From Candidatus Eremiobacterota bacterium (GTDB lineage Bacteria; Vulcanimicrobiota; Vulcanimicrobiia; Vulcanimicrobiales; Vulcanimicrobiaceae), in assembly GCA_019235885.1 (NCBI GenBank), contig JAFAKB010000081.1, positions 1-64,000 of the forward strand: a stretch of 64,000 bases of DNA, read 5' to 3'. The position numbers and the translations under genes were made by a program. Numbering within the stretch: position 1 is the first letter of the stretch; each line of letters opens with the position of its first letter. Positions 8,044 to 37,667 of the stretch are shown piece after piece. The notes beneath the pieces were generated by a model, which worked only from the letters and a program-made list of their open reading frames with translations, ran no database searches and was not told where the DNA came from.

Positions 8044-8634
8044 CTACTCGCCCGTCAGTCCGTAGACGGCGGCCCGTGCGCGGAACCGCTCGACGTCCAA
8101 GCTCAGGATCACGAGGTCGTGCTTGACTCCGGCGGCGTCCTTAACGTGGTCGCGCAGCAGGGCTTCGGCCTTGTAGCCCACGGTCTCGAACACCGTCACC
8201 GCGCCGAGCTGGTCCGGCGTCAGCTTCGCGATCAGCTTCTCGACGCCGCTCGCGACCGCGAGCTCGCCGGCGTCCGCGCTCAGCACTCGGCCTAAACCGA
8301 CGCCGCGCGCGGCGCGCGCGACGACGACGCGCAGCTCGGCGACGTGCGGCGACCACGAGAGCGGATCGCGCACGATCGTCGCGCACCCGACGACCTCGCT
8401 ACTGCGAAAGGCGAGCAGGGTCGTCAGTGCGCCGCGCTCGATCTCGTGCGCCCACGCGGCGAGCACTTTCGGCTGCGTGATGTCGCGCGGCAGGAACAGC
8501 AAGTCATGCGTCGGCAATTCGCGCGCGAACGCCAGCACCGCCGCTTCGTCGCCGGCGCGCATGAACCGCAGCTCGACGTCGTCCTCGCCCAGGCGAACGG
8601 TGCGTGGATACGTGTGCGCCGTCGTGTGGTTCAT
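8044..8634 (-). CDS. GNAT-family N-acetyltransferase
   Basis: 196 residues with the GNAT fold order: an N-terminal beta strand block (VELRFMRAGDEAAVLAFARELP), the ELRVVVARAARGVGLGRVL stretch matching motif A for acetyl-CoA pyrophosphate binding, and the C-terminal VFETVGYKAEALL. Its ATG overlaps the stop of phaC (ATGA), so it is the last gene of the phaC transcript. Acceptor substrate unknown. Confidence 0.85.
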   Translation of the reverse strand: MNHTTAHTYPRTVRLGEDDVELRFMRAGDEAAVLAFARELPTHDLLFLPRDITQPKVLAAWAHEIERGALTTLLAFRSSEVVGCATIVRDPLSWSPHVAELRVVVARAARGVGLGRVLSADAGELAVASGVEKLIAKLTPDQLGAVTVFETVGYKAEALLRDHVKDAAGVKHDLVILSLDVERFRARAAVYGLTGE

Positions 8635-9686
8635 GTCGAGCGCACGCTCAGCCAGGCGTCGAGCCGCGGCCAGAGCCGCTTGACGGCGTTCGGCCCCGCG
8701 ACCAGACTGACGTGGCCGCCTTTGAGCACGATCTCTTCCTTGTCGCTCGAGCGTACGTGCCCGATCAGCGGCTTCGCCGCCTCGTACGGGACGATGTGGT
8801 CATGCTCGGCCATCGCGTGCAGCATCGGCACCGTGATCCCGGAGAGGTCGGCGTGCTTGCCGCCGACGACGAGCTCGTTCTTGTGCAAGCGGTTCTCCCA
8901 GAGCAGCTCTTTGATCGTCTCGCGAAAGTACTCGCCGGCGAGCGGAAGCGTGTCGGTCGACCAGCGCTCGAACGCGCGGTACGAGCGCACGAACTTCTCG
9001 TCCCACATGTTCTCCCAGAGCTGCGCCTGGCCGGCGAGCCGCGTGGCGGGGCGCAGCATCTCGAACGAGCTGAAGATCAGCTCCGAGGGAACGTTTCCGG
9101 TCGCGTCGACCAGCCGGTCGACGTCGAAGTAGCGCCGGTCCGACCACTTCGCGAACAACTCCATGCGGCTGAAGTCGACCGGCGTGGTGAAGCAGACCAG
9201 GTTCGTGAGCTCGTGCGGGTGCAGCGCGGCGTAGATCACCGCGAGCACGCCGCCCATGCAGTAGCCGATGATCGTGACGTCGTCGACGCCGCTGTCCTCG
9301 CGCACGCGCTGCACGCACTCCGGGATGAACCGCAGCGTGTAGTCCTCGAAGCGCAGCTCGCGGTCGGCCGCCGTCGGCGGGCTCCAGTCGATCAGATAGA
9401 CGTCGTAACCGCGGCCGATCAGGTACTCGACGAAGCTCTGCCCGGGCGCGAGGTCGAGGATGTAGCCGCGGTTGCTGGTCGCCATCACGATCAGGATCGG
9501 GACGCCGTAGATCTCCGCGGCGACCGGGACGTAGTGGTACAAGTGCAGCGTCCCGCGGTCGAGGATCACGTCCTTGGGCGTCGGCCCGACGGCGGGCGCG
9601 GGCGAGGCGAAGTAGTCCAGCCCTTTGATGCTGCGCCGGATCGCGCGCTCGATCTCGGTTTGGACGCGCTCCGCAATAGAGCTCAC
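8631..9686 (-). CDS. phaC: Poly(3-hydroxyalkanoate) synthase, class III-like PhaC
   Basis: Polymerises hydroxyacyl-CoA into PHA at the granule surface. It is 351 residues, the size of class III/IV PhaC. The lipase-like box GYCMGG gives nucleophile Cys143; Asp296 (AEHDHIVP) and His325 (KGGHVSL) complete the triad, and LIDWSPPT is conserved. The GTG start at 9686 sits in a GTGA overlap with a remnant phaE stop, exactly as in the second copy near 14400. A longer in-frame extension to 9896 runs through the remnant and into the island and is not native. The upstream neighbour is now the island protease gene, so this copy has lost its original phaE and promoter. Confidence 0.95.
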   Translation of the reverse strand: MSSIAERVQTEIERAIRRSIKGLDYFASPAPAVGPTPKDVILDRGTLHLYHYVPVAAEIYGVPILIVMATSNRGYILDLAPGQSFVEYLIGRGYDVYLIDWSPPTAADRELRFEDYTLRFIPECVQRVREDSGVDDVTIIGYCMGGVLAVIYAALHPHELTNLVCFTTPVDFSRMELFAKWSDRRYFDVDRLVDATGNVPSELIFSSFEMLRPATRLAGQAQLWENMWDEKFVRSYRAFERWSTDTLPLAGEYFRETIKELLWENRLHKNELVVGGKHADLSGITVPMLHAMAEHDHIVPYEAAKPLIGHVRSSDKEEIVLKGGHVSLVAGPNAVKRLWPRLDAWLSVRST

Positions 9687-9754
9687 GCGCTCGGTTCGGC
9701 GGCCGTCGGCCTCTTCGTGCGCGGCGGACGCGGTCGCTCGGGCGCCGTCGCCGG
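9481..9754. repeat. Left copy of 274-bp imperfect direct repeat (phaE end / phaC start)
   Basis: Aligns without gaps to 14195-14468 at a constant offset of 4714 bases, matching at roughly nine of ten positions by eye. It covers the first ~68 codons of phaC and the last ~23 of phaE. Weaker protein-level similarity continues to about 9790. Confidence 0.95.
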
Positions 9755-9790
9755 AATGGCGTTGGCCCCCTGCGCGTCGGCGATCCGCTG
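9683..9790 (-). pseudogene. Remnant phaE 3' end (last ~35 codons)
   Basis: Read in the phaE frame, the minus strand gives QRIADAQGANAIPATAPERP and then RPPRTKRPTAAEPSA stop. This aligns with the C-terminus of the intact phaE (QRISEEQRHDG, APATAHERPRPP, RTKKPPAAEPSA). It differs at several residues, so it is a diverged second copy and not a fresh duplicate. It is cut off at its 5' side by the island, whose last gene stops at 9814. Its stop overlaps the phaC GTG start. Confidence 0.85.
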
Positions 9791-9813
9791 AGATATCCGC
9801 CGCCTTGAACGCA

Positions 9814-10725
9814 TTAGGCGTCGAACGACCCGCTTCTCGCGACCCGCAGCACAACTGGAGTGCTGACCTGGCTTTGGAATATCTTGTAGGCATCAAGATC
9901 TGTGAGAGCCGCTATAGTTGCGTGATGCACGGTCAAAACTCGGTCTTGCAGTTCGGGGTCTCCCTCGAGCATCTCAATTTTGAGGCCCCAAGCCGCGGCC
10001 TTGTTAGGGCCAACGTGGCGTCGGTGGGCTTTCGTGTGCTCGAGCTCGGTGAAGTGAGAAATCACCGCTTTGGCTGCGTTCATCGGATCCTGTTCACCGC
10101 GCAACATGTCGCTAGAGAGCCAGGTGGTTACGATGTCTTCCGACCACTCAATGGCCCGTTGCGCCTCAGAAACAGAAGGTGCATAGTTATGAATAAGAGT
10201 GCTCCAGGCAATTGCGTCGTCTTGGTCCTTCTTAACAGAGTTTACGGCCTTCCAGAAATCATCGACGATCATTCGCGCAGAAATGCTCCCAATGAGAGGG
10301 TCAAAAGCGCCAAGGCAGGAGTGTTTACCCATCATGATACGGCTGCCGATGCATGCGAGCATGGTACCGGCAGAGAGAGCAAGCTGCGGAACGATTACGC
10401 GAATATCGCTAAAAAGTGACCGAAAATAATCGCCGATCGCCTCAGCTGCGGCGATGTCTCCCCCGGGCGTGTGCAAGATTAGGTCCAGCCCTCTGTCCCG
10501 CGGGAGCCCAGAGACGACAGACATGAACGAGTTCATGTCGACGTCATCTACCTCAAAAAGTAGAAAAGGAAGACCCAGACTGCTTTTTTGCAGCCAGCCC
10601 GAGTAATAGATTATCGTGTTCCTATTTGTGTACGCGAAAAGCTCCTTAAGTGCTTTCGTTCGCACTAGGTCGTAACTATCGGGGGTTTCCCGAATGTCTT
10701 TACAGACTGTGGCCCAATCACCCAA
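9814..10725 (-). CDS. Clp-fold serine protease, SDH/SppA-like (SDH_sah family)
   Basis: 303 residues. The core reads DLILHTPGGDIAAAEAIGDY (about 81-100) and then VIVPQLALSAGTMLAC, the crotonase/Clp-fold arrangement of the serine dehydrogenase proteinase and SppA families; Ser118 in LSAG is the likely nucleophile. There is no signal peptide or membrane segment, so it is cytoplasmic. The start is a TTG at 10725 with GGGAG 9 bases upstream; no ATG or GTG fits better. It lies downstream of the ImmA/IrrE gene after a 369-base gap and 127 bases before phaC, which may now be read through from it. In the island it could act as the proteolytic output of the Ubl module, but that is inference. Confidence 0.82.
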   Translation of the reverse strand: MGDWATVCKDIRETPDSYDLVRTKALKELFAYTNRNTIIYYSGWLQKSSLGLPFLLFEVDDVDMNSFMSVVSGLPRDRGLDLILHTPGGDIAAAEAIGDYFRSLFSDIRVIVPQLALSAGTMLACIGSRIMMGKHSCLGAFDPLIGSISARMIVDDFWKAVNSVKKDQDDAIAWSTLIHNYAPSVSEAQRAIEWSEDIVTTWLSSDMLRGEQDPMNAAKAVISHFTELEHTKAHRRHVGPNKAAAWGLKIEMLEGDPELQDRVLTVHHATIAALTDLDAYKIFQSQVSTPVVLRVARSGSFDA

Positions 10726-11094
10726 GCGGTCGTTCTCCCTTAGTCCTTGCTTGTTCGGTCAGATATGCGCAGCCTGAGCCGTGCTAAGCCCTTTTGCGTT
10801 GGAGGCAACCAACCCATTCGTTGAGGCATATCCGTTTCGTGTTCCGAGGTCGATGCGGGCGGCTCAGTCGGCTGAACTCGGTCGCGAAGATGCGAGGCGT
10901 TCTTCTGCGAGTGTTTCCCTTTCATTTTGCACCAACTCTGCGGCTTCTGCAGGTAGTTTTGCACGGGCGTTCGCGTTTGGTGACGACGCAGGGCTTGATC
11001 CGCCGATCCGGGGGCCCCATTTCGCTCAATGTTGATGTCCCGCGCCGGTCGGAAAATTGAACTGTTTTCGCCTCGCGCCTACTTTCCTTGCTGC
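10726..11094. other. Intergenic region with no supported gene
   Basis: 369 bases between the protease and ImmA/IrrE genes. The short frames on both strands show no recognisable protein and no ribosome-binding site; base composition is mixed. It may hold a separate promoter for the protease, but no convincing -35/-10 pair was found. Confidence 0.5.
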
Positions 11095-11688
11095 CTAGGC
11101 CCCCTTAGCCCAGCGATGCTGTTTGCTGGCGCTCGCCACTGAGGCTGCGGCGCGCGGGCGGGCACCAGTAATGTTTAGCCTATAGGATGCAAGCTGCGGA
11201 CTGACGGCATAGCGCATGCTGATCTCATCGACCGTCAATAAAAGGCGCGCGCAATGCAAACACGCCGCATCAGGAAGCAGTAACACGCCGGCGAGGTAAT
11301 CGGCCTCGTCTTCAAGATCTCGATTGACTCTCCGGCAGCCATGTGTGCCAAGGGCAGGACCAGGCGAGTGCATCAAAAGGGCATGAGCGATCTCATGAGC
11401 GATCGTGTTATTGACGCGACCCGGCGAATGGTAGTCGTTATAGATTATCATCCGCCGCGAACCCTCGAAGATCGTCAATCCGGAAACCGCCCTACCAGCG
11501 TTCCGAAGAATGCCCAGCGCTTCGTCACAACCTTTGATCTGATCGAACGAGATGACCGGAATATCAAGATACTTCGCTGCAACACGAGGTTCAAAGGGCG
11601 CAAGGTGGTCAAGCGACAACTCTGCGCGGAGATCCGCTGCGACCTTGTTCGCTTCCGATTTGAATCCGTGCCTTAGCGCCATGGTCAT
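11095..11688 (-). CDS. ImmA/IrrE-family metallopeptidase
   Basis: 197 residues with the zinc motif HEIAH (98-102) and the downstream glutamate in EDEADYLAGVLLLP, the signature of ImmA/IrrE (COG2856) proteases. Members cleave a partner XRE repressor in mobile elements (ImmA/ImmR) or in the Deinococcus stress response (IrrE/DdrO). The ATG overlaps the stop of the XRE gene by 4 bases, so the pair is translationally coupled, as in those systems. The natural reading is that this protease removes the neighbouring repressor upon a signal and opens the divergent Ubl operon. Confidence 0.9.
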   Translation of the reverse strand: MTMALRHGFKSEANKVAADLRAELSLDHLAPFEPRVAAKYLDIPVISFDQIKGCDEALGILRNAGRAVSGLTIFEGSRRMIIYNDYHSPGRVNNTIAHEIAHALLMHSPGPALGTHGCRRVNRDLEDEADYLAGVLLLPDAACLHCARLLLTVDEISMRYAVSPQLASYRLNITGARPRAAASVASASKQHRWAKGA

Positions 11689-12050
11689 CCGGACTTTCGG
11701 CGTCTCGCCGGGTTCACCAACTCGTACGCGTTACGGATCACCGTCGTGAGGGCGGCCGCTTGTTCCTCTGATAGGCTTGGATCGCCCCGAAGTAAGACGG
11801 ATATTTCCGTCAGGGCATCCTTATGGGACGGAGACGCCCCGAGATAATCATTCGCGTCTAGGCCCGACCATCTGACGAGCGCGGCCAAACCGTTTACGTC
11901 GGGGCGCTTTCCTTGTGCCATGCGAGTTAATGTTGAGGCGCTTATCCCGGCCTCCTTAGCGACTTGGCGCCATTGAAGTCCTCTGGTTCGCCGCGTCGCG
12001 TCAAGGGCGGCATACAGGCGGTCGGCGTCTAGGCCTGATCGATCAGGCAT
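11685..12050 (-). CDS. XRE-family HTH repressor
   Basis: 121 residues. A helix-turn-helix lies near residues 20-50 (WRQVAKEAGISASTLTRMA), followed by a helical C-terminal half that could hold the dimer interface and the cleavage target of ImmA/IrrE. The ATG at 12050 has GGAGGAGGG 8 bases upstream, which decides the start; an in-frame extension to 12482 is a shadow of the divergent Ubl gene. It is probably autorepressing, because its own -10 lies within the second of two palindromes in the 141-base divergent gap. Confidence 0.9.
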   Translation of the reverse strand: MPDRSGLDADRLYAALDATRRTRGLQWRQVAKEAGISASTLTRMAQGKRPDVNGLAALVRWSGLDANDYLGASPSHKDALTEISVLLRGDPSLSEEQAAALTTVIRNAYELVNPARRRKSG

Positions 12051-12070
12051 ACATCGGTCCCTCCTCCAAA

Positions 12071-12106
12071 CGTTTGACATTTCGAACACCGTTTGATATA
12101 TAGAAC
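12071..12106. promoter_or_regulatory. Tandem 16-bp palindromic operators, likely XRE sites
   Basis: Two copies of a GTTTGA...GAAC element, 12072-12087 and 12091-12106, repeat at a 19-bp period. Each 16-mer matches its own reverse complement at 12 of 16 positions. The first covers the -35 and the second covers the -10 of the Ubl promoter, an arrangement for direct repression. Confidence 0.75.
12074..12102 (+). promoter_or_regulatory. Promoter of the ubiquitin-like operon
   Basis: TTGACA (12074-12079), exactly 17 bases, TATATA (12097-12102). Transcription would start near 12109, giving a leader of about 83 bases before the Ubl ATG. It is overlapped by both palindromes. Confidence 0.75.
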
Positions 12107-12125
12107 AAAATGACTGGCGTTGCAA
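12097..12125 (-). promoter_or_regulatory. Promoter of the XRE-ImmA/IrrE operon
   Basis: On the minus strand TTGCAA (12125-12120), 17 bases, TATATA (12102-12097). The self-complementary TATATA serves as the -10 of both divergent promoters, so only one polymerase could occupy the site at a time. Confidence 0.6.
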
Positions 12126-12191
12126 GACTCGAATCTCGTTCTGCTTTCGCAACACCACCGACTTCGCTCCTTTTAGATGGAGGGCATCAAA

Positions 12192-12566
12192 ATGAATGAA
12201 ACGGGTGACGCGGAAAACGCTAGGCTGGAGGGCGAACTGAGCGAGGTCGACCGCGAGATCGCTGAAGATTCGGAGCGGCTTGAACACGACAAAGCGCGCA
12301 GGTCGGAAATCGAAGACCGACTCGAACATCGCCCACTCGTTATCTTCGTAAACACTCGCGAACGTCACGTGAACGGGCAAACAATTTCGTACGACGGTCT
12401 CGTGCGGCTTGCGTTCGATCCCGTGCCGACCGGGCCGAACGTTGCATTCACGATCACTTATCGGCGTGGGCCGCACGAGCATCCTGAAGGTATCGTCGCG
12501 CCGGGGCAGACCGTGCCGATCAAGGATGGTGAGATCTTCAATGTTACCCGAACTGATCGATCGTAG
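12192..12566 (+). CDS. Ubiquitin-like protein, multiubiquitin-type beta-grasp domain
   Basis: 124 residues. Residues 7-46 are a charged helix with coiled-coil character; residues 48-124 form one beta-grasp unit (LVIFVNTRERHVNGQTISY ... TYRRGPHEHPEG ... VPIKDGEIFNVTRTDRS), the pattern of the bacterial multiubiquitin family, which can have one to several repeats. The C-terminus is TDRS, without the diglycine of eukaryotic ubiquitin. GGAGGG 7 bases before the ATG at 12192 decides the start over the ATG at 12177. The E1-like gene begins inside its last 26 bases, so the two are translationally coupled. Its role is presumed to be that of a modifier or filament-forming Ubl; targets unknown. Confidence 0.87.
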   Translation: MNETGDAENARLEGELSEVDREIAEDSERLEHDKARRSEIEDRLEHRPLVIFVNTRERHVNGQTISYDGLVRLAFDPVPTGPNVAFTITYRRGPHEHPEGIVAPGQTVPIKDGEIFNVTRTDRS

Positions 12567-13722
12567 TCCCGATTTGCGGCGACTCCACGAGGACGGTTAC
12601 GAACTTGAGGTCCGTGGCGGCCATCTGCTTCTCCACAATATTCCGTACGTCAAGGCCGACCGAACAGTCGGACGAGGTGTGCTGGCAACGACCTTGCGGC
12701 TCGCTGGAGATGTAACGACGAGGCCCGATACGCACGTCGCGACGTTCGCCGGTGGCCACCCATGCGACGCAAACGGCATACCCTTGAATCATATCATTAG
12801 TAGCGGTCGGCAGCAGGTTGCCCCTGATTTCTGGATCGATCACACATTCTCGTCGAAACCACCCAACGGCTACGATGATTACTACGACAAGATGACGCAC
12901 TACGCCGCGCTCATCGCGGGGCCGGCACAGGTCCTTGATCCTCAAGCTACGCCGCGTCACCATGCGGTGTTGCGACCTTACGAGGACAATTCGCCCTTCG
13001 TCTACCTTGATAATGCCTCCGCACGTGCGGGAATCGAAGCAATCAATGCCAAGCTGGCCGGAGCTAAGGTCGCTATCATCGGCCTCGGTGGTAGTGGCTC
13101 ATACGTCCTTGACTTCATTGCGAAGACGCCGGTGTCGGAAATCCACCTCTACGATTCCGACGACTTTGTGCAGCACAATGCCTTTCGTGCTCCCGGTGCG
13201 CCGAGCGTCGAGGAATTGCGCGAGAAGCCGAAGAAAGTCGCCTTCCTTGCCGAGCGTTATTCTCGGATGCATCGCGGCATCAAAATGCACGAAGAAATGA
13301 TCAGCGAATCGAACGCTGGGCAACTCGCCGGGGTTGATGTTGCTTTTATTTGTGTTGATGAAGGCTCTGCTAAAGGTGGCATAATTTCTGTCTTGGAGTC
13401 GCTCCAAATCACGTTTATCGATGTCGGAATGGGCATCCAAGCTGAGGGGGGGACGCTTCACGGCATTCTTCGCGTCACTACCAGTACGCCGGAGCACCGA
13501 AACCACGTCCACGACCGGCAGCGGATACCCCTAGGAGCTGTCGAGCCGAACGACTACGCGAGTAATGTGCAGATCGCGGAATTAAACGCGCTCAACGCGG
13601 CGCTGGCGGTAATCAAGTGGAAAAAACTCCGAGGACTCTACGCAGATCTCGAACGTGAGTTTCACTGTCTCTATACGCTCGACGGCAACCACCTGTTGAA
13701 CGATGACTTCGGCTCGGACTAG
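12541..13722 (+). CDS. E1-like ThiF-fold adenylyltransferase with N-terminal DUF6791-type domain
   Basis: 393 residues. Residues about 10-140 (DGYELEVRGGHLLLHNIPYV ... GDVTTRPDTHVATFAGGHPCD) match the DUF6791 region that precedes ThiF domains in Ubl operons. Residues 165-390 are the E1 fold: ATP loop GLGGSGSYVLDF (181-192), the LYDSDDF acidic turn, and the HNAFR motif with its arginine. By family analogy it adenylates the Ubl C-terminus. Cys75 in GGHPCD is the best candidate thioester cysteine; Cys271 lies on the core strand. No JAB peptidase or separate E2 is encoded nearby. The start is the ATG at 12541 inside the Ubl gene; an extension to 12409 is not credible. Confidence 0.9.
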   Translation: MLPELIDRSPDLRRLHEDGYELEVRGGHLLLHNIPYVKADRTVGRGVLATTLRLAGDVTTRPDTHVATFAGGHPCDANGIPLNHIISSGRQQVAPDFWIDHTFSSKPPNGYDDYYDKMTHYAALIAGPAQVLDPQATPRHHAVLRPYEDNSPFVYLDNASARAGIEAINAKLAGAKVAIIGLGGSGSYVLDFIAKTPVSEIHLYDSDDFVQHNAFRAPGAPSVEELREKPKKVAFLAERYSRMHRGIKMHEEMISESNAGQLAGVDVAFICVDEGSAKGGIISVLESLQITFIDVGMGIQAEGGTLHGILRVTTSTPEHRNHVHDRQRIPLGAVEPNDYASNVQIAELNALNAALAVIKWKKLRGLYADLEREFHCLYTLDGNHLLNDDFGSD

Positions 13723-14104
13723 CCGTCGGGACGCGTTTGTCGTCGAGTTTACCCGCAGTGTCCCCGAACAACTCGCGGATGGCGTTCTTTACGTTTCGAT
13801 GGAGTTTGCAAGCGCTGTTCATCTCTGCGCATGCGGATGCGGAAACGAGGTCGTCACGCCGCTGTCACCGCGGAACGGGTGGAAGCTCCTCTACGATGGC
13901 GAGGCCGTGTCGTTGACGCCGTCCATCGGGAACTGGTCGTTCCCGTGCCGGTCGCACTATTTCATCGCAGAAAATCACGTAGTTTGGACACCGCGTATAC
14001 CAAGCCGATCGCCCACCGAAGTGAAGCCCCAAAACACCCGTAAGCGGGGAAAGCGGCGTCAGGGTTTTCTGGCGTCACTGCAATCCTTCTTCAAAATTCG
14101 ATAG
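13703..14104 (+). CDS. DUF6527-type zinc-binding partner of the ubiquitin-like cassette
   Basis: 133 residues. It carries a metal-ligand cluster H40-x-C42-x-C44-x-C46 (VHLCACGCG) and C82-x-x-H85 (PCRSH), with VTPLSP and SLTPSIGNWSFPC between, the pattern of DUF6527 proteins found with multiubiquitin and ThiF genes. A basic tail (about 108-133) follows. It starts within the last 20 bases of the E1-like gene, so all three genes form one coupled unit. Its biochemical role is unknown; a substrate adaptor or ligase-like part is possible. Confidence 0.87.
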   Translation: MTSARTSRRDAFVVEFTRSVPEQLADGVLYVSMEFASAVHLCACGCGNEVVTPLSPRNGWKLLYDGEAVSLTPSIGNWSFPCRSHYFIAENHVVWTPRIPSRSPTEVKPQNTRKRGKRRQGFLASLQSFFKIR

Positions 14105-14156
14105 CCCATAAGGGAATCGTGCTTCCTTGACAACGGCGGTTTACGGCAGGTCCCGC

Positions 14157-14400
14157 CGATCCACGTCGAAGTAGCGCCAGGGCGACGACTTCACGCCATC
14201 GCGATCAGGTTCGGGACGCGGTAGATCTCGTCGGCGACCGGGACGTAGTGGTAGAGGTGCAGCGTCCCGCGCTCGAGGATCACGTCCTTCGGCGTGGGCC
14301 CGACGGCGGGCGCGGGCGAGCCGAAGTAGTCCAGCCCTTTGATGCTGCGCTGGATCGCGCGCTCGATCTCGGTTTGGACGCGCTCCGCGGTAGAGCTCAC
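14157..14400 (-). pseudogene. Truncated phaC copy with internal deletion
   Basis: From the GTG at 14400 it matches the first ~69 codons of phaC (VSSTAERVQTEIER ... YHYVPVADEIY) and then meets TGA. In the next frame a short piece reads SSPWRYFDVDR, matching SDRRYFDVDR at residues 182-191 of the intact phaC. So about 110 codons have been lost by deletion and the rest of the gene by the island boundary. It keeps the GTGA overlap with the phaE stop. It cannot encode a working synthase because the Cys box is missing. Confidence 0.88.
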
Positions 14401-14468
14401 GCGCTCGGTTCGGCGGCCGGCGGCTTCTTCGTGCGCGGCGGACGCGGTCGCTCGTGCGCCGTCGCCGG
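14195..14468. repeat. Right copy of 274-bp imperfect direct repeat
   Basis: Partner of 9481-9754; here it joins an intact phaE to the broken phaC copy. No gaps are needed in the alignment. Confidence 0.95.
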
Positions 14469-14789
14469 CGCGCCGTCGTGGCGCTGCTCCTCGGAGATGC
14501 GCTGCAGCAGCGCGTTCATGCGGTCGAGCCGCGCCTCGATATCGCCCAAGCGCTCGCCGAGGGCGAGCACTTCGGCGCGGCTCGGCAGGTTCGTCGCCGC
14601 CAGGTACGCCGTCATGAACTGCTTGATCGTCTCCTGCATGCGCAGCGTGAGTCCCATCGCGCCGTGCATCGCGCTGCCGTACTCGTCCGACGCCATCGTC
14701 TTGTTCGCGAGCGCGTTCACGCTCGTCTCCCACTGCGAGAGCATCTCGCGCCACACTGCGAGCGGGTCGAAGTCCTTCGGGTGCGCCAC
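14397..14789 (-). CDS. phaE: PhaE-like PHA synthase subunit
   Basis: 130 residues. FDPLAVWREMLSQWETSVNALANKTM and the following helical stretch, ending in a coiled-coil (LALGERLGDIEARLDRMNALLQ) and a Pro/Arg-rich tail, fit the accessory subunit of class III synthases. It is much shorter than Allochromatium PhaE. The GTG start lies 1 base after the stop of the acyl-CoA ligase and the stop overlaps the start of a phaC copy, so the native order was ligase-phaE-phaC. The following phaC is broken; the working phaC is 4.7 kb away beyond the island. Confidence 0.8.
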   Translation of the reverse strand: MAHPKDFDPLAVWREMLSQWETSVNALANKTMASDEYGSAMHGAMGLTLRMQETIKQFMTAYLAATNLPSRAEVLALGERLGDIEARLDRMNALLQRISEEQRHDGAPATAHERPRPPRTKKPPAAEPSA

Positions 14790-30935: not shown

Positions 30936-32081
30936 ATGCCTTGGTCCACAAATCTCAGCGTTCGCTATCATCAGCAGAACACGGACAAGCTGTGCGGACC
31001 TGCTAGCGCGATGATGGTACTTCATTCGATCGATGGCCAGACCGTACAAGAAGATGAGCTTTGGGGCAAACTGAAGTCAAGCATCGGCGGTTGGAACACC
31101 AATCCGTGGAGTCTCGAGGCCGGGCTCAACCGCTATGCCCCTCAGCGGTTCGTGGGCCGCTTTCGCGCCGTACCGGGAAATAACCAGAATGATGCAAACT
31201 CGCGGGTCGTCGGAGCCTTGCTCGCGCAGGAGCCCGTACCACCCGTCGTTCTCGTTTTCGGAAAGGCGCACTGGGTGGTCGTTACCAATGTGAACCTAGC
31301 GGCGATGCCAAACGGTGACGCGCTGATGGTCCTCGGGTACTACATCCACTGCCCCACCGTGTCGCCGTTGAACCCGCCTAGGCTGCACGGCGATAACGAT
31401 CTGTGTGCCACGGGTTCCACCTTTGGTAGCACTGATGCCTATCAGTACGTCAGCTATCCGGCTTGGCAAGACGAATACTTCAACGGCTATTACGATGGTA
31501 GGGAATTTAAGTTCGTCACCGTTGCGATCGACGATAGTTCTGTGCTACCCGAAATCTCACGCCTCTCCGAACGCACTGAACGATTGCGTCTCTATGGCTA
31601 CGACGCTGCGTACCTTAGCGAATTCGTCAACCCCAAGGTCGCCGCGGACGACGCGCTAGCCGCGATCACTAGTCATGGTCTTGGCGACCATGGACCGTTG
31701 CAGAGCGCCCTTCATGACCTTACGGCAGCCGGCGAACCGGAACTCGTCACGCGTGTCGACGTGCTTAGGTGGACATACTATGTTGTCCCACTTCTTCGCG
31801 GCGACCGCGTCGTCGGAGTGGCGCGCATGAACGCGCTCACCAGTGCTTTCATGGGAGCGTCTGCGACCCCAGACGGAGTTTACCACATTCTTAGCTCTGC
31901 AACGCTCAAAAAGGAGTTGCCCGCCGGATACGTCGCAACCGGCCTTGTGTGGGCTCCGTGCCGCGAGTCAAGGTCGCAGTATCACCCGCTCCGCCGCATT
32001 CGCGGACCAGCCGGCTGCGGTTTTCTCGACCAGCGTGGCGTCTATCATGAGTCGCTCACGCCGCTGACGAGCGGCGGCTGA
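30936..32081 (+). CDS. C39-like papain-fold cysteine peptidase
   Basis: 381 residues. The N-terminal ~130 residues fit a C39-like papain fold: Gln in RYHQQNTDKLCGPASAMMVL with Cys20 as nucleophile, and His112 in GKAHWVVVTNV. The remaining ~250 residues are not recognised. There is no signal peptide and no ABC transporter fusion, so it is not a classical bacteriocin exporter. GGAGGA 7 bases upstream supports the ATG. Base composition is clearly lower in G+C than the flanks. It may process a secreted or modified peptide; this is inference. Confidence 0.7.
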   Translation: MPWSTNLSVRYHQQNTDKLCGPASAMMVLHSIDGQTVQEDELWGKLKSSIGGWNTNPWSLEAGLNRYAPQRFVGRFRAVPGNNQNDANSRVVGALLAQEPVPPVVLVFGKAHWVVVTNVNLAAMPNGDALMVLGYYIHCPTVSPLNPPRLHGDNDLCATGSTFGSTDAYQYVSYPAWQDEYFNGYYDGREFKFVTVAIDDSSVLPEISRLSERTERLRLYGYDAAYLSEFVNPKVAADDALAAITSHGLGDHGPLQSALHDLTAAGEPELVTRVDVLRWTYYVVPLLRGDRVVGVARMNALTSAFMGASATPDGVYHILSSATLKKELPAGYVATGLVWAPCRESRSQYHPLRRIRGPAGCGFLDQRGVYHESLTPLTSGG

Positions 32082-32692
32082 GTGATTGCGAAGCGCCGGT
32101 TCTCGGAGTCGTAGTCGCAGGCTCGAAGACGATTTCGCGCGTTGAACCGCATCTTAAGGGCAGTGTTTGGAATGTCGACCACGACGCTGCCGGCGACAAC
32201 GTGAGCTTCGACCCAGACGTAGGCGCAGTGCGCGGTTGCAAAGTTTGCCCTGCAATTGGGCGCCAGCGCGACGGCGTTAAGTGGCCGTCGAAAACTGGTT
32301 GCGTTGACGGTTGCAGATTGGAGCAGTCCGAATACAGCGATGCGTTCACATTCATTTCGAACGTCGTACTGACCTGGCGGTAGGCGGTCGTCGGTTTGCG
32401 GTGGACCGAAGCCGTAGTCCCCGTACGAGTAGAGATGCCGGTGTGCCGCCGGGTACACGGTGTGCCTCGGTTCGATAATCGCGTCAGCTCGAAGCGGCGT
32501 CTCCGATGCGAATAGGCCGTAGGTATCGGTCCATTTGATCCAAATGGCCGCCAGCGGCGGTAGCACGATCCAGGCCAGGTTGGGACGACGAGCCCCCACG
32601 GGCCTCGCTATGACGATCGAGGAGCCGGTCTCTGAAAGCTTTGCGCGGCCTTCGGGATCGGTCCTAATCGTAAGGCTGTACGTGCATGCCAT
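32045..32692 (-). CDS. Unrecognised protein, probably beta-rich
   Basis: 215 residues (MACTYSLTIRTDPEGRAKLS ...). Alternating short hydrophobic stretches, FGLLQSATVNATSF and CAYVWVEAHVVAGSVVVDIP suggest a beta sandwich of about 190 residues. No signal peptide. Its 3' end overlaps the convergent peptidase gene by 37 bases. The ATG at 32692 has no ribosome-binding site, and a putative -10 (CATTAT) lies only about 9 bases upstream, so the message could be leaderless. Function unknown. Confidence 0.6.
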   Translation of the reverse strand: MACTYSLTIRTDPEGRAKLSETGSSIVIARPVGARRPNLAWIVLPPLAAIWIKWTDTYGLFASETPLRADAIIEPRHTVYPAAHRHLYSYGDYGFGPPQTDDRLPPGQYDVRNECERIAVFGLLQSATVNATSFRRPLNAVALAPNCRANFATAHCAYVWVEAHVVAGSVVVDIPNTALKMRFNARNRLRACDYDSENRRFAITQPPLVSGVSDS

Positions 32693-32715
32693 GGCTAGGA
32701 TAATGCGTCAACCGC

Positions 32716-32733
32716 GTTACGGGCTGGTTAATC
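32716..32733 (-). promoter_or_regulatory. Candidate SARP box upstream of the beta-rich protein gene
   Basis: On the minus strand GATTAAC (32733-32727) and CCGTAAC (32722-32716) repeat at an 11-bp period, sharing TAAC with the pairs at 30863 and 37650. It is 23 bases before the start codon. Confidence 0.5.
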
Positions 32734-32816
32734 GGCCCGGAACGAGAACGGTTATCGGTAACCGTCCGTCGTACAGAGCAGAATGGTGCTTAGTCCGGAG
32801 CGGAGTGACTACAGCA

Positions 32817-34889
32817 ATGGTGCATTCGGGTGGTCCGAAACTGATGGAGACGATCGCCGAACGTTCTCCGCGTATTCTCGCGGTCTGGGGGCCGGCCGGG
32901 TACCGCAAAAACGCGCTGCTGCGCGGGCTTGCGGCTCGAATGGATCGCCTCGTAATATGTACGGTTCCGGCGCCCGCCGAGGGACAGGATCTAAGCCGCG
33001 CGGTACTGGAAGCGCTCGTATCCCGTAGTCGTACCCGCGCCGCGCGCTGGGCTGCGGGGCGACTGGCGCAGCCCAGAGAGTTCGCGTCGATGGCAGCCCG
33101 GGAAGCGTTGCGCCGAGAATGGCCGCTTGTCGACGGGTCTGAGCTCTTCGTGTTGCGCGACGTCGGGGGCTCCATCGCAACGCCGGCCGGGTTGGACCTT
33201 GTCGAAGAACTCGTCGCTTCGCTACCCGCGGGTCGCACGTTGGCCGTGACGACCCGAATTTCGCTGCCGCCGGCGCTCACCCAGATCGTCGACGCGCACC
33301 GTTCGCTAACGATTACGCCAGCCGAGTTGGCACTCTCGCGCAATGCGGTGGACGACCTAGCGCGTCAGGCGGGTCTCTCGCAACCGAGTGCGGAGCAGAT
33401 TTATGAAATTGCTCACGGCTGGCCACTCGTTTCCCGCCTCTTGATCCGTTTGGTGGCCGCCGAGCCGTCCTTAAAATTGGAGATGGCGCGTAGCCTTACG
33501 GCCGCCGCGCTCCTCGCATTCGCGGCGCACCGAACGGTGGCATCATTGGAGGACAGCGTTCGGGATGCGGTTGCCGTCTCGGCGGTGCTCCATGGCGCGA
33601 CACAATTGGAACTGATGCGAGTCTTGGGCGGAAACTGCGATGATGTTGTCTTTAGCCAGCTACTCGCTCTTCCGTTCGTCGAGCTAGAAGCGGAACGTGC
33701 GATCATACACCCTGAGATCGCTTGCTTGATGCTGCAGAGGTTCAGGTCCGTCGTCATACCGCTCTATGAACAGGTCCTTCACGCCCTGAGCGGTGACGGC
33801 GCGTATGCGGAGGCTGCTCGAATCGCGGTCGATGGCGGTGATATCATTCGCGCAGCTGCAATCCTGGACGCTGCGCCGCCTTACACTGCCGCTCGCGTTC
33901 CGCTCGAGGATTACGAACGAGTATTGGACCGCCTCGATCGTGATCTGGTCACCCGCTTTCCGAATGTTTGGCTCGCTACGATTCCGTATCGAGCGTTTTC
34001 CGTTGACCGTGCAACTTACATCCGCGAGGCGGAGACGGTGTACTATTGCTTGCCGCGAACGGCGACCGACGAGCAGCGCGCCGTGGTATTGATTCACCTC
34101 GCGTCCGCATATGCCAACGTCGGTCGGGCCTCGGAGAGTGACCAGCTTCTGGAAGAGGCATTGAACGGATTTGCCCACGAGCCGTCATCGGCCCGCGCGA
34201 CGCTGCTGACGTTCAGCGCAACGCTCCGCGGTATCGAGGGGCGTTTCGTCCTGGCTCGTGCTCAGGCAGCTGAAGCGGCATCCATTTCGGCTCCAGACTT
34301 CGTCTTCGGCGAGAACCAGACGCTGCATTATATCGAGGCCCATGAAGCAGCGTTTCGCGGGCGCTACGGGCGCTCACTCGTCATGTTTGATGAGCTGATG
34401 CGGAGAATGACACGCGAGGATCTGCCGCTTTATTTGGCATACGCGGCGACCAACGGTGCCTTCATCGCCTGGATAAGCGGCGACGACGAGCGGTTCGAGC
34501 GGTACGTCTCAATCCTCGAGGACCGCCTCACGCCAGGGATCGAACGCGGTTTTGCTCCGATGGTAGACGCGGCGCGCGGCCGTGTGCCGCAAATCGACGA
34601 GCGCTATCCTTGGCCGGTCTTGGCCGCCATAGCTCACCTCTATCGAGTCGGCGAGGCATCGGTCGAGTCCGACGCCCTTTCATCGGCATGGGCAGCGGTG
34701 CATGCCGCCGACGAACGACGCGATCCATACGCGCAGATCTTCGCGCATACGGCGGTGTTCGTACTCGACAGAGCTTCACGGGCTGAGCAGAGCGCGAAGC
34801 TTCTCACCATCGCTAACTCCGTAGAAAGCCCCGAGTTGCAATTCGCAATTCGCGAGTTAATTGCCGAGAAAGGCCAGCGGGGATTTTAG
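32817..34889 (+). CDS. STAND/MalT-like NTPase regulator, N-terminal part of a frame-split SARP activator
   Basis: 690 residues. It begins with a MalT-type NTPase (PRILAVWGPAGYRKNALLRG; LFVLRDVG; RTLAVTTRISLPPAL) and continues with helical TPR-like repeats (LLEEALNGFAHEPSSARATLL). The P-loop reads GPAGYRKN, with Asn replacing the usual Ser/Thr after Lys, so nucleotide binding may be weak. There is no DNA-binding domain before the stop at 34887. The winged-helix/BTAD part follows in another frame, 20 bases on. ATG at 32817 chosen; GTG at 32805 is possible. Likely controls the surrounding accessory genes. Confidence 0.75.
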   Translation: MVHSGGPKLMETIAERSPRILAVWGPAGYRKNALLRGLAARMDRLVICTVPAPAEGQDLSRAVLEALVSRSRTRAARWAAGRLAQPREFASMAAREALRREWPLVDGSELFVLRDVGGSIATPAGLDLVEELVASLPAGRTLAVTTRISLPPALTQIVDAHRSLTITPAELALSRNAVDDLARQAGLSQPSAEQIYEIAHGWPLVSRLLIRLVAAEPSLKLEMARSLTAAALLAFAAHRTVASLEDSVRDAVAVSAVLHGATQLELMRVLGGNCDDVVFSQLLALPFVELEAERAIIHPEIACLMLQRFRSVVIPLYEQVLHALSGDGAYAEAARIAVDGGDIIRAAAILDAAPPYTAARVPLEDYERVLDRLDRDLVTRFPNVWLATIPYRAFSVDRATYIREAETVYYCLPRTATDEQRAVVLIHLASAYANVGRASESDQLLEEALNGFAHEPSSARATLLTFSATLRGIEGRFVLARAQAAEAASISAPDFVFGENQTLHYIEAHEAAFRGRYGRSLVMFDELMRRMTREDLPLYLAYAATNGAFIAWISGDDERFERYVSILEDRLTPGIERGFAPMVDAARGRVPQIDERYPWPVLAAIAHLYRVGEASVESDALSSAWAAVHAADERRDPYAQIFAHTAVFVLDRASRAEQSAKLLTIANSVESPELQFAIRELIAEKGQRGF

Positions 34890-34909
34890 AACCCTTCATT
34901 CGGCTGCGA

Positions 34910-35731
34910 GTGCTGCGTGATCGTCAGTTGCGTGATCCGCGGCTAGTCGTCGAGCTGATTGGGGCCCGTGTCACGCGAGATCGCCAGCCGCTCAAGCTCA
35001 CCGACAAGGAACTCGAATTTCTGACGTTGCTTGGTTCAGCTCACGGATCGATATCGCGCGACCGCATCGGCGAGACTCTTTGGGGTCATCTTGACCCTGA
35101 GGAGTGGCCAAATAATATCAAGGTGACTCTTTCTCGGCTTCGCACAAAGCTGGGAGTACGTGACGCCGTCCTTTCTTCGAACGGAGGATATCGGCTCGGG
35201 CCGAAGATTGAAGTCGATCTTCGCCGAGCCGAAGCCCTCGTTAGAGATACTGCGAGCGCGCTTCTCGACGAGGCCGGTCGAGACGCGCTTAGACGCATTG
35301 TCATGGCGTATAGGAGTGGTTCCGCCGCGCGATACGAGCGCTTCCCGTGGGCACAGTCTTTTTTGGTTCGCATCCAGGATGTGGTCTGTACCGCCGGCCT
35401 GATGCTCGCGAAGGATGCTCTGCGCCGAAGCTCGATCCACGAGGCTCTCACGGAAGCAAGGGCGGTTACTGACGTGGACTCCTTAAATGAAAGCGCTTGT
35501 GAGCTCACGATTCGCGCTTACCTTACGCTCGATGATGTTGACGCCGCCCGCCGCGAGTTCAGGCGCTACGCTGCCGTCCTCGAGTCTGAGCTGGCAACCG
35601 CGCCCGCTCCACATTTGGCCGCGCTCGCGCAAGAGCCCCTGCGGAACCCGAAACTAGTCGGGTCTTACGGACCGCTCGGCGGAACGACACCGGAGCCGAT
35701 CGGTCCTGCGAGGCTTCCCCCATTGCCGTAG
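34910..35731 (+). CDS. SARP-type winged-helix/BTAD transcriptional regulator (C-terminal part)
   Basis: 273 residues from a GTG at 34910 without a ribosome-binding site. LTDKELEFLTLLGSAHGSISRDRI and NNIKVTLSRLRTKLGVRDAV are an OmpR-like winged helix, followed by YRLGP and the BTAD helical domain (about 95-240). The frame is open upstream through GILEPFIRLRVLRD, which looks like the usual linker joining the STAND part to this domain. So this is probably the C-terminus of one ~970-residue activator, interrupted by a -1 (or +2) frame change just before 34887. Confidence 0.8.
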   Translation: MLRDRQLRDPRLVVELIGARVTRDRQPLKLTDKELEFLTLLGSAHGSISRDRIGETLWGHLDPEEWPNNIKVTLSRLRTKLGVRDAVLSSNGGYRLGPKIEVDLRRAEALVRDTASALLDEAGRDALRRIVMAYRSGSAARYERFPWAQSFLVRIQDVVCTAGLMLAKDALRRSSIHEALTEARAVTDVDSLNESACELTIRAYLTLDDVDAARREFRRYAAVLESELATAPAPHLAALAQEPLRNPKLVGSYGPLGGTTPEPIGPARLPPLP

Positions 35732-36234
35732 TAGATTGTCATCGCATCGAAGTCGAGGTACTTCTTCCCAAGCGGAACGTCGACGAAGTAACCGCGTACC
35801 GATCCATCCGCAGTCACCTTCGAACCCAAGATAACGAGACCGAGCTGGCCATCGTTCGTATTTACGTACTTGTCCGCCGGCTGTTCCAGAACCAACGTCG
35901 CCGACGATAAATCGCTTGCCAGGGCTAACGAATATCCAATCCGCGCACCTTTGTACTGGGCTCCGATCGGAGTGAACGTCAATTTTTGCGTGCCATCTAA
36001 TGTCCCTAGGACGGTGATAGAACTGATCGTACCGGGGGTCTTAGTGTACGTGCTCGGCGCAAAGAAATCGAAGAGGACCTCGATCTTTCCGCTCCCTGGC
36101 GGATTTTCGTCAGCGTGGCAGAACAAAGGGTTCCCGTCGTAGGTCGTGATGTTCGAGGTTCCACCGAAGGAGTCGTTGGTGAACCCGTCGAGATGAATCT
36201 GATTCAGCTTGATTTGCAACGGCAACTGGGCCAT
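35665..36234 (-). CDS. Unrecognised beta-rich protein
   Basis: 189 residues (MAQLPLQIKLNQIHLDGF ...), rich in Gly, Thr and Ser with alternating strands, no signal peptide, one Cys, and a proline-rich end (GVVPPSGP). AAGGA lies about 10 bases before the ATG. Its 3' end overlaps the regulator gene by 67 bases, convergently. It is the last gene of the minus-strand radical SAM operon. No family recognised; it could be the secreted or structural product of the locus. Confidence 0.6.
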   Translation of the reverse strand: MAQLPLQIKLNQIHLDGFTNDSFGGTSNITTYDGNPLFCHADENPPGSGKIEVLFDFFAPSTYTKTPGTISSITVLGTLDGTQKLTFTPIGAQYKGARIGYSLALASDLSSATLVLEQPADKYVNTNDGQLGLVILGSKVTADGSVRGYFVDVPLGKKYLDFDAMTIYYGNGGSLAGPIGSGVVPPSGP

Positions 36235-36314
36235 GATAAAATATCCTTTTCGCGAACAGCGAGTGTGAATTGTACATCGATCGGGGAGGTGTTAGTGTCA
36301 GCCCGCGGAACTGA

Positions 36315-37310
36315 CTACCGGTGAAGTTGGAGAAATCTCGTTGCGATTGATGCCGCGACATCGTTTCCGTGGGTAGCGATTACGGCCATCGCGACCTTAT
36401 CGCGCTGCAGCGCTATGCAGGCCTGACAAATGGAGGCAGACGGCGGCAGGCGGTATCCGGGGAGATGCTTGGCGACGAACTCTGAGATGCCGGCAGGACC
36501 GGCGACGTGGAGCCAGGCGTGAAGAAGGTCCGTGGGCGCGGACGTCATGACTTCGTCCAGCGGACGGTTCGCCACCGAACCGATCTCCAGTAGCGGCAAC
36601 TCCTCCAACGGGAAGCCGCAACACGCCGTCAGTCGTTGGTCGGGTGTGACCGAGATAATCGTCAAGATTTGTGGACACCCGCCATGTTGATAGCCCGCGT
36701 CGTGCATTAGGATTCGATTATGGCTGAGCCGCGCATTTCCGCGGCCGCCGGCATCGGAGATCCATGGATCATGTGCGATGGCCACGACCCCTTCAGTGAT
36801 CTGTTGCGCGAGTTCTGTGCGGATGATCGAATCATCGAAGTCGGACTGGTCGCATCGTTCGACCGAAATACGGGTTGAAATCCCGGCGGCCGACGCTGCT
36901 CGGGCGGCGTGTATGACTCGCTCAACCGGAATGAACTGCTGATGAAACGTCCCGGTTGAGAGCATTAGCTCATCGAGCCCCGATGTGGCGAGGCGGGTGG
37001 CGCGCTTTGCGGCAGCGTACGCGTTGACCGCCCAATATCCGTTACTGATTGCACGCGTATCGAACTCGACTTGATGTGCATGTGCGATCAGGGCGTCAAG
37101 ATCGTTGCCGAGTAGAAAGCACTCGCCGCCGGTGAACACAACGCGCTCGATCGTTGGTAGTCGCTTCGCCTCTTCGATGAGAGCATGAATTCTCGGTACG
37201 GGAATGGATGTGGTCGCTTTGGGGCTTGCGCCAATGCAGCAGTGGTCGCACGCTGCAGTGCAGCGGCGCGTTGTCAAGATCGACAGGATGCGGGGAGACG
37301 CGATCATCAT
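36315..37310 (-). CDS. Radical SAM protein
   Basis: 331 residues from the ATG at 37310. The SAM cluster is C17, C21, C24 (RRCTAACDHCC), followed by VVFTGGECFLLG and AISNGYW. C-terminal cysteines (GGCPQIL, TACCGFP, CQACIAL) suggest an auxiliary cluster of SPASM or twitch type. It begins 1 base after the stop of the 98-residue gene, so the two are coupled; this is how many peptide-modifying radical SAM enzymes are arranged with their substrate or binding partner. An extension upstream to 37394 shadows that gene. Confidence 0.85.
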   Translation of the reverse strand: MMIASPRILSILTTRRCTAACDHCCIGASPKATTSIPVPRIHALIEEAKRLPTIERVVFTGGECFLLGNDLDALIAHAHQVEFDTRAISNGYWAVNAYAAAKRATRLATSGLDELMLSTGTFHQQFIPVERVIHAARAASAAGISTRISVERCDQSDFDDSIIRTELAQQITEGVVAIAHDPWISDAGGRGNARLSHNRILMHDAGYQHGGCPQILTIISVTPDQRLTACCGFPLEELPLLEIGSVANRPLDEVMTSAPTDLLHAWLHVAGPAGISEFVAKHLPGYRLPPSASICQACIALQRDKVAMAVIATHGNDVAASIATRFLQLHR

Positions 37311-37311
37311 G

Positions 37312-37608
37312 CTATTGGGCTGCTTCGATGTCCGCGCCGAGCGCCTCTTCATCTGTGATGAGTATGTCCAGCGGACCCGCGATCGATCGGTCACCGTCCG
37401 AGTGCTCCGGCAGGAAGTAAAGCACGATCGGCTTGTCCTTAGTGTAAGGCGTCGACAAAGCGATGGTTCCGTAGTGGACGCCCCCGAAAACGAACGTCAT
37501 TGACCTCAGGACGTTGTCATAACGCCGTCGACTTTCAAGATGTGTGACGGTTGCTGAAGTGCGCGAGCATTCCGATGCGGTGCGATTGAGGTTCGCGTTG
37601 TCGGTCAT
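37312..37608 (-). CDS. 98-residue protein coupled to radical SAM enzyme; possible precursor or partner
   Basis: MTDNANLNRTASECSRTSAT at the N-terminus, a central stretch RSMTFVFGGVHYGTIALSTPY, and an acidic tail (LDILITDEEALGADIEAAQ). AGGGGG lies about 10 bases upstream of the ATG at 37608. The size, position and coupling to the enzyme allow a RiPP precursor or a recognition protein, but no leader motif (such as GG or GA cleavage site) or core repeat is clear. Not a known family to me. Confidence 0.6.
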   Translation of the reverse strand: MTDNANLNRTASECSRTSATVTHLESRRRYDNVLRSMTFVFGGVHYGTIALSTPYTKDKPIVLYFLPEHSDGDRSIAGPLDILITDEEALGADIEAAQ

Positions 37609-37649
37609 CGTGTGTACCCCCTGATCCACGATGAGCTTCGGCCATGGCG

Positions 37650-37667
37650 GTTACAAGCAGGTTACTG
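37650..37667 (-). promoter_or_regulatory. Candidate SARP box upstream of the radical SAM operon
   Basis: On the minus strand CAGTAAC (37667-37661) and TTGTAAC (37656-37650) repeat at an 11-bp period. It lies at the very end of the MATE gene and 41 bases before the 98-residue gene. Confidence 0.55.

Follow-up and report, generated by a model that had tools for sequence, protein, structure and literature searches.

A 4.4-kb island in the stretch of DNA analyzed here (64,000 nt, contig JAFAKB010000081.1 of a Candidatus Eremiobacterota bacterium, forward strand; referred to as the window, and all coordinates are positions in it unless another locus is named) carries six genes, and the question raised by this locus is whether they form one system. 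Three of the genes, the trio, encode a ubiquitin-like protein (Ubl), an E1-like adenylyltransferase and a DUF6527 protein. The other three encode an XRE-family repressor, an ImmA/IrrE (M78) metallopeptidase, the domain of which is known by the older name DUF955, and an SDH-type serine protease of ClpP-like fold. An earlier note on this DNA had proposed that all six belong to a single mobile, signal-triggered system for the tagging and degradation of proteins. Our interpretation, which we hold to be probable, is that the island contains a repressor-controlled Ubl conjugation cassette and, beside it, an unrelated protease gene; the switch, the conjugation and the function are what we infer from the genes.

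The six genes were found to be intact and to have the arrangement and the 4.4-kb extent described in that note, as confirmed by the reading frames and by Pfam matches, each of which lay above the curated cut-off. The frames of the trio overlap by 26 nt (Ubl/E1) and 20 nt (E1/DUF6527), so that the trio looks like one operon, and most related loci show the same Ubl/E1 overlap. The XRE and ImmA genes overlap by 4 nt and are divergent from the trio, and the protease gene lies 370 nt beyond the ImmA gene (Table 1).

Conservation of the trio and of its upstream genes

When 84,980 species genomes were scanned, 80 loci with E1 relatives at 45 to 55% identity were obtained. These loci are the nearest relatives only and include some near-duplicates, and their genes were called by a simple open reading frame (ORF) rule. 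They span many bacterial phyla and two archaea. The trio is conserved as a unit, with E1 present in all 80 loci, Ubl in 79 and DUF6527 in 78 by profile search of the locus ORFs. The claim that the trio is a unit already known from comparative genomics and related to Bub was also borne out (PMC1779556). Within the phylum of the window's genome, E1 was present in 4 of 149 genomes.

For 50 loci, the three genes closest upstream of the trio were compared by Pfam with distant genes on the same contigs, truncated contigs and the 24 loci of a second class (class B, below) being excluded. M78 was matched by 33 of 147 upstream genes and by 0 of 107 distant genes (Fisher p 3e-9), and HTH_3 by 23 of 147 and 0 of 107, respectively (Fisher p 2e-6). 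An M78 gene was located upstream in about 33 of the 50 loci of this first class, mostly together with an XRE gene, and PADLOC assigned 31 of the 147 upstream genes to capP and 9 to capH. Hence the co-occurrence of all six families expected in the earlier note was observed for the XRE/ImmA pair and not for the protease, which none of the 80 loci had near the trio.

In the 24 class B loci, a protein of about 1130 residues is encoded directly upstream of the trio, with the HExxH motif kept in 24 of 24. In the member scanned, this protein consists of M78, UvrD helicase and PD-(D/E)XK nuclease domains. The first-class loci with M78 and the 24 fused M78 proteins together agree with the published figure that 70% of multiubiquitin genes adjoin an XRE/DUF955 pair (Kopfmann et al. 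2016, PMC4963859). The gene order in class B is an upstream gene, a 190-residue protein without family, the M78-UvrD-PD-(D/E)XK fusion, Ubl, E1 and DUF6527, as exemplified by L058 (2455-9643), the Ubl of which has three domains, and by L127 (576-8643), located on an Acinetobacter plasmid. In the latter, the gene two steps upstream is named a sigma-70 factor by RefSeq. The upstream genes of class B could be a sigma/anti-sigma damage switch.

Other genes were observed in the place of the XRE/ImmA pair, as in L073 (6599-7642), L125 (4582-5463) and upstream in L056. In a few loci it is occupied by WYL (CapW-like) genes or, in two, probably by CapK/CapS-like pairs with HATPase and DUF4325 matches, so that the controller is swapped and the trio retained. 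The trio also occurs in the archaeal records L040 and L100, where XRE/ImmA is replaced by a TrmB-like regulator (L040) or by other genes.

The remaining observations on distribution concern hosts and mobile elements. The Ubl operon was found in 3 of 5426 complete Escherichia coli genomes (L149 4817-10184, L150 1341-7177), and in E. coli ES2 it adjoins an integrase at a tRNA-Leu gene, its upstream part being replaced by IS1. No E1 relatives were found in the phage collection, which consists of isolate phage records; five virus-labelled metagenome contigs (L134-L138) encode E1 relatives.

The XRE/ImmA pair and its control region

The ImmA of the island has an intact HExxH motif (HEIAH, residue 98) and matches the PADLOC capP model with an E value of 6.7e-14. 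The region separating the divergent XRE and Ubl genes contains two operator-like sites, 19 bp apart, the copies of which match at 15 of 19 positions. This similarity was equalled by 1 of 300 shuffles and, in a second run, by 1 of 100. Such a pair fits repressor operators, and the two sites are putative ones. Comparable pairs of sites were seen in two Nostoc loci; in most of the other loci the signal was not clear.

These data bear on the first alternative, namely that XRE/ImmA is a toxin-antitoxin pair that stabilizes the cassette by addiction and has no part in its regulation. The DUF955/XRE pairs beside 70% of multiubiquitin genes were read as toxin-antitoxin loci by Kopfmann et al. (PMC4963859), and the 4-nt overlap is of the kind found in many toxin-antitoxin operons. 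However, the intact peptidase site of ImmA and its similarity to CapP, and the position of the pair on the promoter side of the Ubl gene, speak against this reading, and the substitution of WYL, CapK/CapS-like or M78-helicase/sigma genes in other loci fits a role in control. We consider this alternative unlikely.

The Ubl, E1 and DUF6527 proteins

The Ubl has a single Multi_ubiq beta-grasp domain following a charged N-terminal stretch that is probably coiled. Its profile matched the solved structure 9cd2 (E 3.5e-24). The C terminus reads TDRS, and the terminal serine is present in 30 of 30 sequences as well as in 9cd2. Because of this conserved serine, it was deduced that Gly-Gly is not used and that trimming is probably not needed.

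The E1 was found to consist of an N-terminal DUF6791 domain (residues ~10-157) and a ThiF module (residues ~165-392), and its AlphaFold2 model has a predicted local distance difference test (pLDDT) score of 89.5. The best solved fold for residues 165-392 was that of Citrobacter BubCD (Z 24.5, root mean square deviation 2.5, 221 residues aligned), and this was accompanied by a sequence-profile match of BubCD at E 1.3e-9. The matches of the fold search cover mostly the ThiF half. Across 55 sequences, the residues of adenylation are invariant (GxGGxG, Asp205, Arg216, Lys232 and Asp273).

For the N-domain, which is DUF6791, no Pfam match to JAB was obtained in E1. Here His65 is invariant in the 55 sequences and Cys75, ten residues later (His65-x9-Cys75), is kept in 53, making it the sole nearly invariant cysteine of E1. 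The spacing of the two residues and the order of helices and strands are reminiscent of E2 enzymes. No Pfam link between DUF6791 and the E2 families was found, not even a weak one, and hhalign against five approximate E2 sequences gave a probability of 2.8%, in a weak test where the positive control, a single Prok-E2_B domain, gave only 15.6%.

In DUF6527, His40, Cys42, Cys44, Cys46, Cys82, His85 and Ser74 are invariant in 54 sequences, with the signature C42-x3-C46-x35-C82-x2-H85, and the protein is predicted to bind metal. The name given by RefSeq to an E. coli relative ("ubiquitination-like system serine protease family protein") is the reason for proposing a deconjugating role, and it points to DUF6527 as a candidate deconjugating protease. 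No NCBIfam model behind this name was found, and the DUF6527 model gave no match above chance to solved structures.

The second alternative is that E1 activates the Ubl C terminus so that sulphur can be transferred or a small molecule or peptide made, in the manner of ThiF, MoeB or MccB, and that no protein is conjugated. ThiF (Z 23.4) and MccB (Z 21.8) were nearly as similar to the E1 module as BubCD was, and E1 has no conserved thioester cysteine. Against this, no metabolic or rhodanese family recurs beside the trio, the Ubl ends in serine and not in Gly-Gly, and the nearest solved relatives are a Bub E1 and a multi-ubiquitin protein. This alternative was regarded as improbable.

The protease

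The protease contains an SDH_protease domain with the SAG nucleophile motif, and the alignment suggests that its catalytic motifs are intact. In the 80 trio loci no significant match to it was obtained, either with the single sequence or with a seven-sequence profile (best E 0.024). Among 50 trio-bearing genomes, three had a close relative of the protease (E below 1e-30), which was always distant from the trio or on another contig. In the phylum of the window's genome, and with that genome excepted, the genomes with the closest protease relatives differ from those with E1. Relatives were instead found in Mu-like phages and on plasmids, without the trio; the protein p15 of Shewanella phage MuM16-1 has 39% identity over 91% of the protease. 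Because it is absent from the 80 trio loci and its relatives have contexts of their own in phages and plasmids, the protease was judged to be a passenger, or cargo, outside the Ubl system.

The third alternative, a single six-gene system whose Clp-fold protease would degrade or process proteins tagged with Ubl, has in its favour the physical linkage, the similar GC content at third codon positions within one island and the apparently intact catalytic motifs. It is nonetheless highly improbable given this distribution of the protease and its relatives and the lack of an AAA+ partner in the island. The outcome that the earlier note itself had named as refuting was thus obtained for its dedicated protease, which was not upheld, and tagging for degradation lost its main basis with it, since the protease does not appear to be part of the system.

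A 74-residue ORF lies at 10740-10964, upstream of the protease gene. Small ORFs of 68 to 79 residues also precede SDH protease genes elsewhere, on chromosomes and a plasmid (L131 7914-8150, L132 5686-5925, L141 3819-4025). As the sequences of these small ORFs are mutually dissimilar, the ORF was not called a gene.

Proposed mechanism

In the proposed cassette, XRE would repress the Ubl operon until ImmA is activated, most likely by DNA damage or by single-stranded DNA from a phage; ImmA would then cleave XRE and turn the operon on. E1 would adenylate the C-terminal carboxylate of Ubl, on serine, and Ubl would be transferred to amines of target proteins either directly or via Cys75 of DUF6791. 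DUF6527 would probably remove or process Ubl. What results would be a response to stress or against phage, and not the marking of proteins for degradation. DNA damage was deduced to be the likeliest signal because single-stranded DNA activates PprI and CapP (PMC10904395) and because the controllers found in the same place elsewhere are damage sensors (PMC13373217).

Several observations weigh against this mechanism. With 197 residues, the ImmA is of a short form that lacks the extra region of the versions of ~300 residues, and its signal may be other than single-stranded DNA. The XRE protein matched the PADLOC capH model only weakly (E 0.012), though its helix-turn-helix is clear, and a consensus scan between the XRE and Ubl genes gave no sigma-70 promoter. 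No conserved cysteine was found in the ThiF module of E1 across the 55 sequences, nor any separate E2, E3 or JAB gene in the island, and for these reasons the conjugation is a putative one. Chambers et al. state, moreover, that phage protection by Bub operons has not been demonstrated (PMC13373217).

A bolder version is a minimal three-protein pathway, free of any separate E2, E3 or JAB, in which DUF6791 would be an E2-like transfer domain, Ubl would be used unprocessed with its serine, and DUF6527 would be a serine deconjugase. Its expression would be wired to DNA damage via XRE/ImmA or, in class B, via the fusion of M78, UvrD and nuclease, which would act on a sigma/anti-sigma pair. This version is speculative, and we regard it as doubtful.

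Borders and origin of the island

The borders of the island are at about 9791 and 14151. Its GC content is 0.56, compared with 0.69 outside, and the GC content at third codon positions is 0.60-0.66 in the island genes and 0.91-0.95 in the flanking genes. At the corresponding position in four congeners, the phaE-phaC junction is unbroken. On these grounds, composition and empty congener sites, the island is considered to be imported DNA. They also give the term "mobile block" used in the earlier note its support, although no integrase or transposase was seen within the island.

The borders are marked by a 300-nt direct duplication of the phaE 3'/phaC 5' region, the copies of which are 91% identical. 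The right copy is accompanied by an internal scrap of phaC at 14152-14195 and was therefore assigned to an internally deleted phaC remnant. The two copies are more alike than the surrounding genes are to their congener counterparts (about 80-85%), and this fits the acquisition of the island together with a further copy of phaC from a near relative, through homologous recombination.

Table 1. Positions of the features of the island and its borders in the window
Feature	Position	Strand	Evidence or remark
Ubiquitin-like protein (Ubl), BubA-like	12192..12566	+	Multi_ubiq PF14452 E 1.4e-12
E1-like adenylyltransferase	12541..13722	+	DUF6791 E 5.8e-51, ThiF E 2.4e-9
DUF6527 protein	13703..14104	+	PF20137 E 2.9e-24
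XRE-family repressor (CapH/ImmR-like)	11685..12050	-	ATG start at 12050; HTH_31 PF13560 E 2.3e-6; PF01381 E 1.4e-5
ImmA/IrrE (M78) metallopeptidase, CapP/ImmA-like	11095..11688	-	Peptidase_M78 PF06114 E 2e-15
SDH-type ClpP-like serine protease	9814..10725	-	PF01972 E 4.2e-19
Operator-like pair, two 16-nt sites	12072-12087 (GTTTGACATTTCGAAC), 12091-12106 (GTTTGATATATAGAAC)		Between divergent XRE and Ubl genes
Left duplication copy (phaE 3' end + phaC 5' end)	9480..9779	n/a	
Right duplication copy	14194..14493	n/a	91% identity to left copy
phaC (polyhydroxyalkanoate [PHA] synthase), intact copy, left border	8631..9686	-	PhaC_N + abhydrolase matches; continuous in congeners
phaE-like PHA synthase subunit, right border	14397..14789	-	PF09712 E 4.8e-5, slightly below model cut-off

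A second stretch of lower GC content (0.58-0.62) was noted at 31000-38000 of the window. By eye, its ORFs resemble those of a large regulator of the ATPase type, a transcriptional activator and a radical-SAM protein.

Significance and comparison with known systems

The pairing of the trio with XRE/ImmA is already known (PMC1779556, PMC4963859, PMC13373217), and 219 of 544 Bub operons have been found with CapW or CapH+CapP (Chambers et al. 2026, PMC13373217). What is new here is a mono-Ubl member, a new host, a short ImmA and an unrelated protease, judged to be cargo. The analysis separates the members of a widespread Ubl pathway from mere fellow travellers, and it shows that in many bacterial phyla the DUF6791-type trio is often accompanied by an M78 peptidase, either CapP/ImmA-like or fused to a helicase and nuclease. 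Damage-switched protein tagging in prokaryotes thereby becomes directly testable, the mono-Ubl version being small enough for transfer to a laboratory strain. The DUF6791 domain with its cysteine-free E1 module and the class B M78-helicase-nuclease fusions are worth the attention of specialists.

Operon type 6e of Iyer et al. (2006) comprises Ubl repeats, an E1 that is usually JAB-fused and a metal-binding protein, and in its subset b an uncharacterized domain ("domain X") replaces JAB (PMC1779556). The trio fits the JAB-less subset of this type, DUF6791 being equated with domain X from the published description. Subset b and the island have in common the Ubl, the E1 with a non-JAB N-domain, the small metal-binding protein and a sporadic, mobile distribution, whereas in the island the Ubl has one domain only, its N terminus is probably coiled, and there is no RWD/E2-like gene. 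The published signature of the metal-binding protein is C-x3-C-x35-38-H-x2-C, whereas that of the island DUF6527 is C-x3-C-x35-C-x2-H, with the last pair reversed. The Synechocystis pSYSX cassette with Slr6056-Slr6057 likewise has multiubiquitin, E1 and the metal-binding protein beside an XRE/DUF955 pair, but it contains a separate E2-like gene and its pair was read as toxin-antitoxin (PMC4963859).

With Citrobacter Bub (BubA/BubB/BubCD, PDB 9ea4, 9ea8 and 9eav), the island shares the fold of the E1 module, and control by CapH+CapP or CapW has been reported for Bub. BubCD differs in having another N-terminal part and an E2/RWD-like partner, BubB, whereas the island has DUF6791 and no BubB. Bil differs by its separate E2 and JAB genes, which were not found in the island. 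The cyclic oligonucleotide-based antiphage signaling system (CBASS) of type II differs in that the island has no nucleotidyltransferase gene and its E1 matches the E1-E2 models weakly, in the ThiF part. The SDH/ClpP-like proteases of Mu-like phages and plasmids are similar proteins, which here would be represented by cargo beside a Ubl trio. Finally, the arrangement of an XRE repressor and an adjacent M78 peptidase beside the operon presumed to be controlled is that of CapH+CapP of CBASS, ImmR-ImmA and DdrO-PprI, from which the island differs in the 197-residue short form of its ImmA and its weak capH match.

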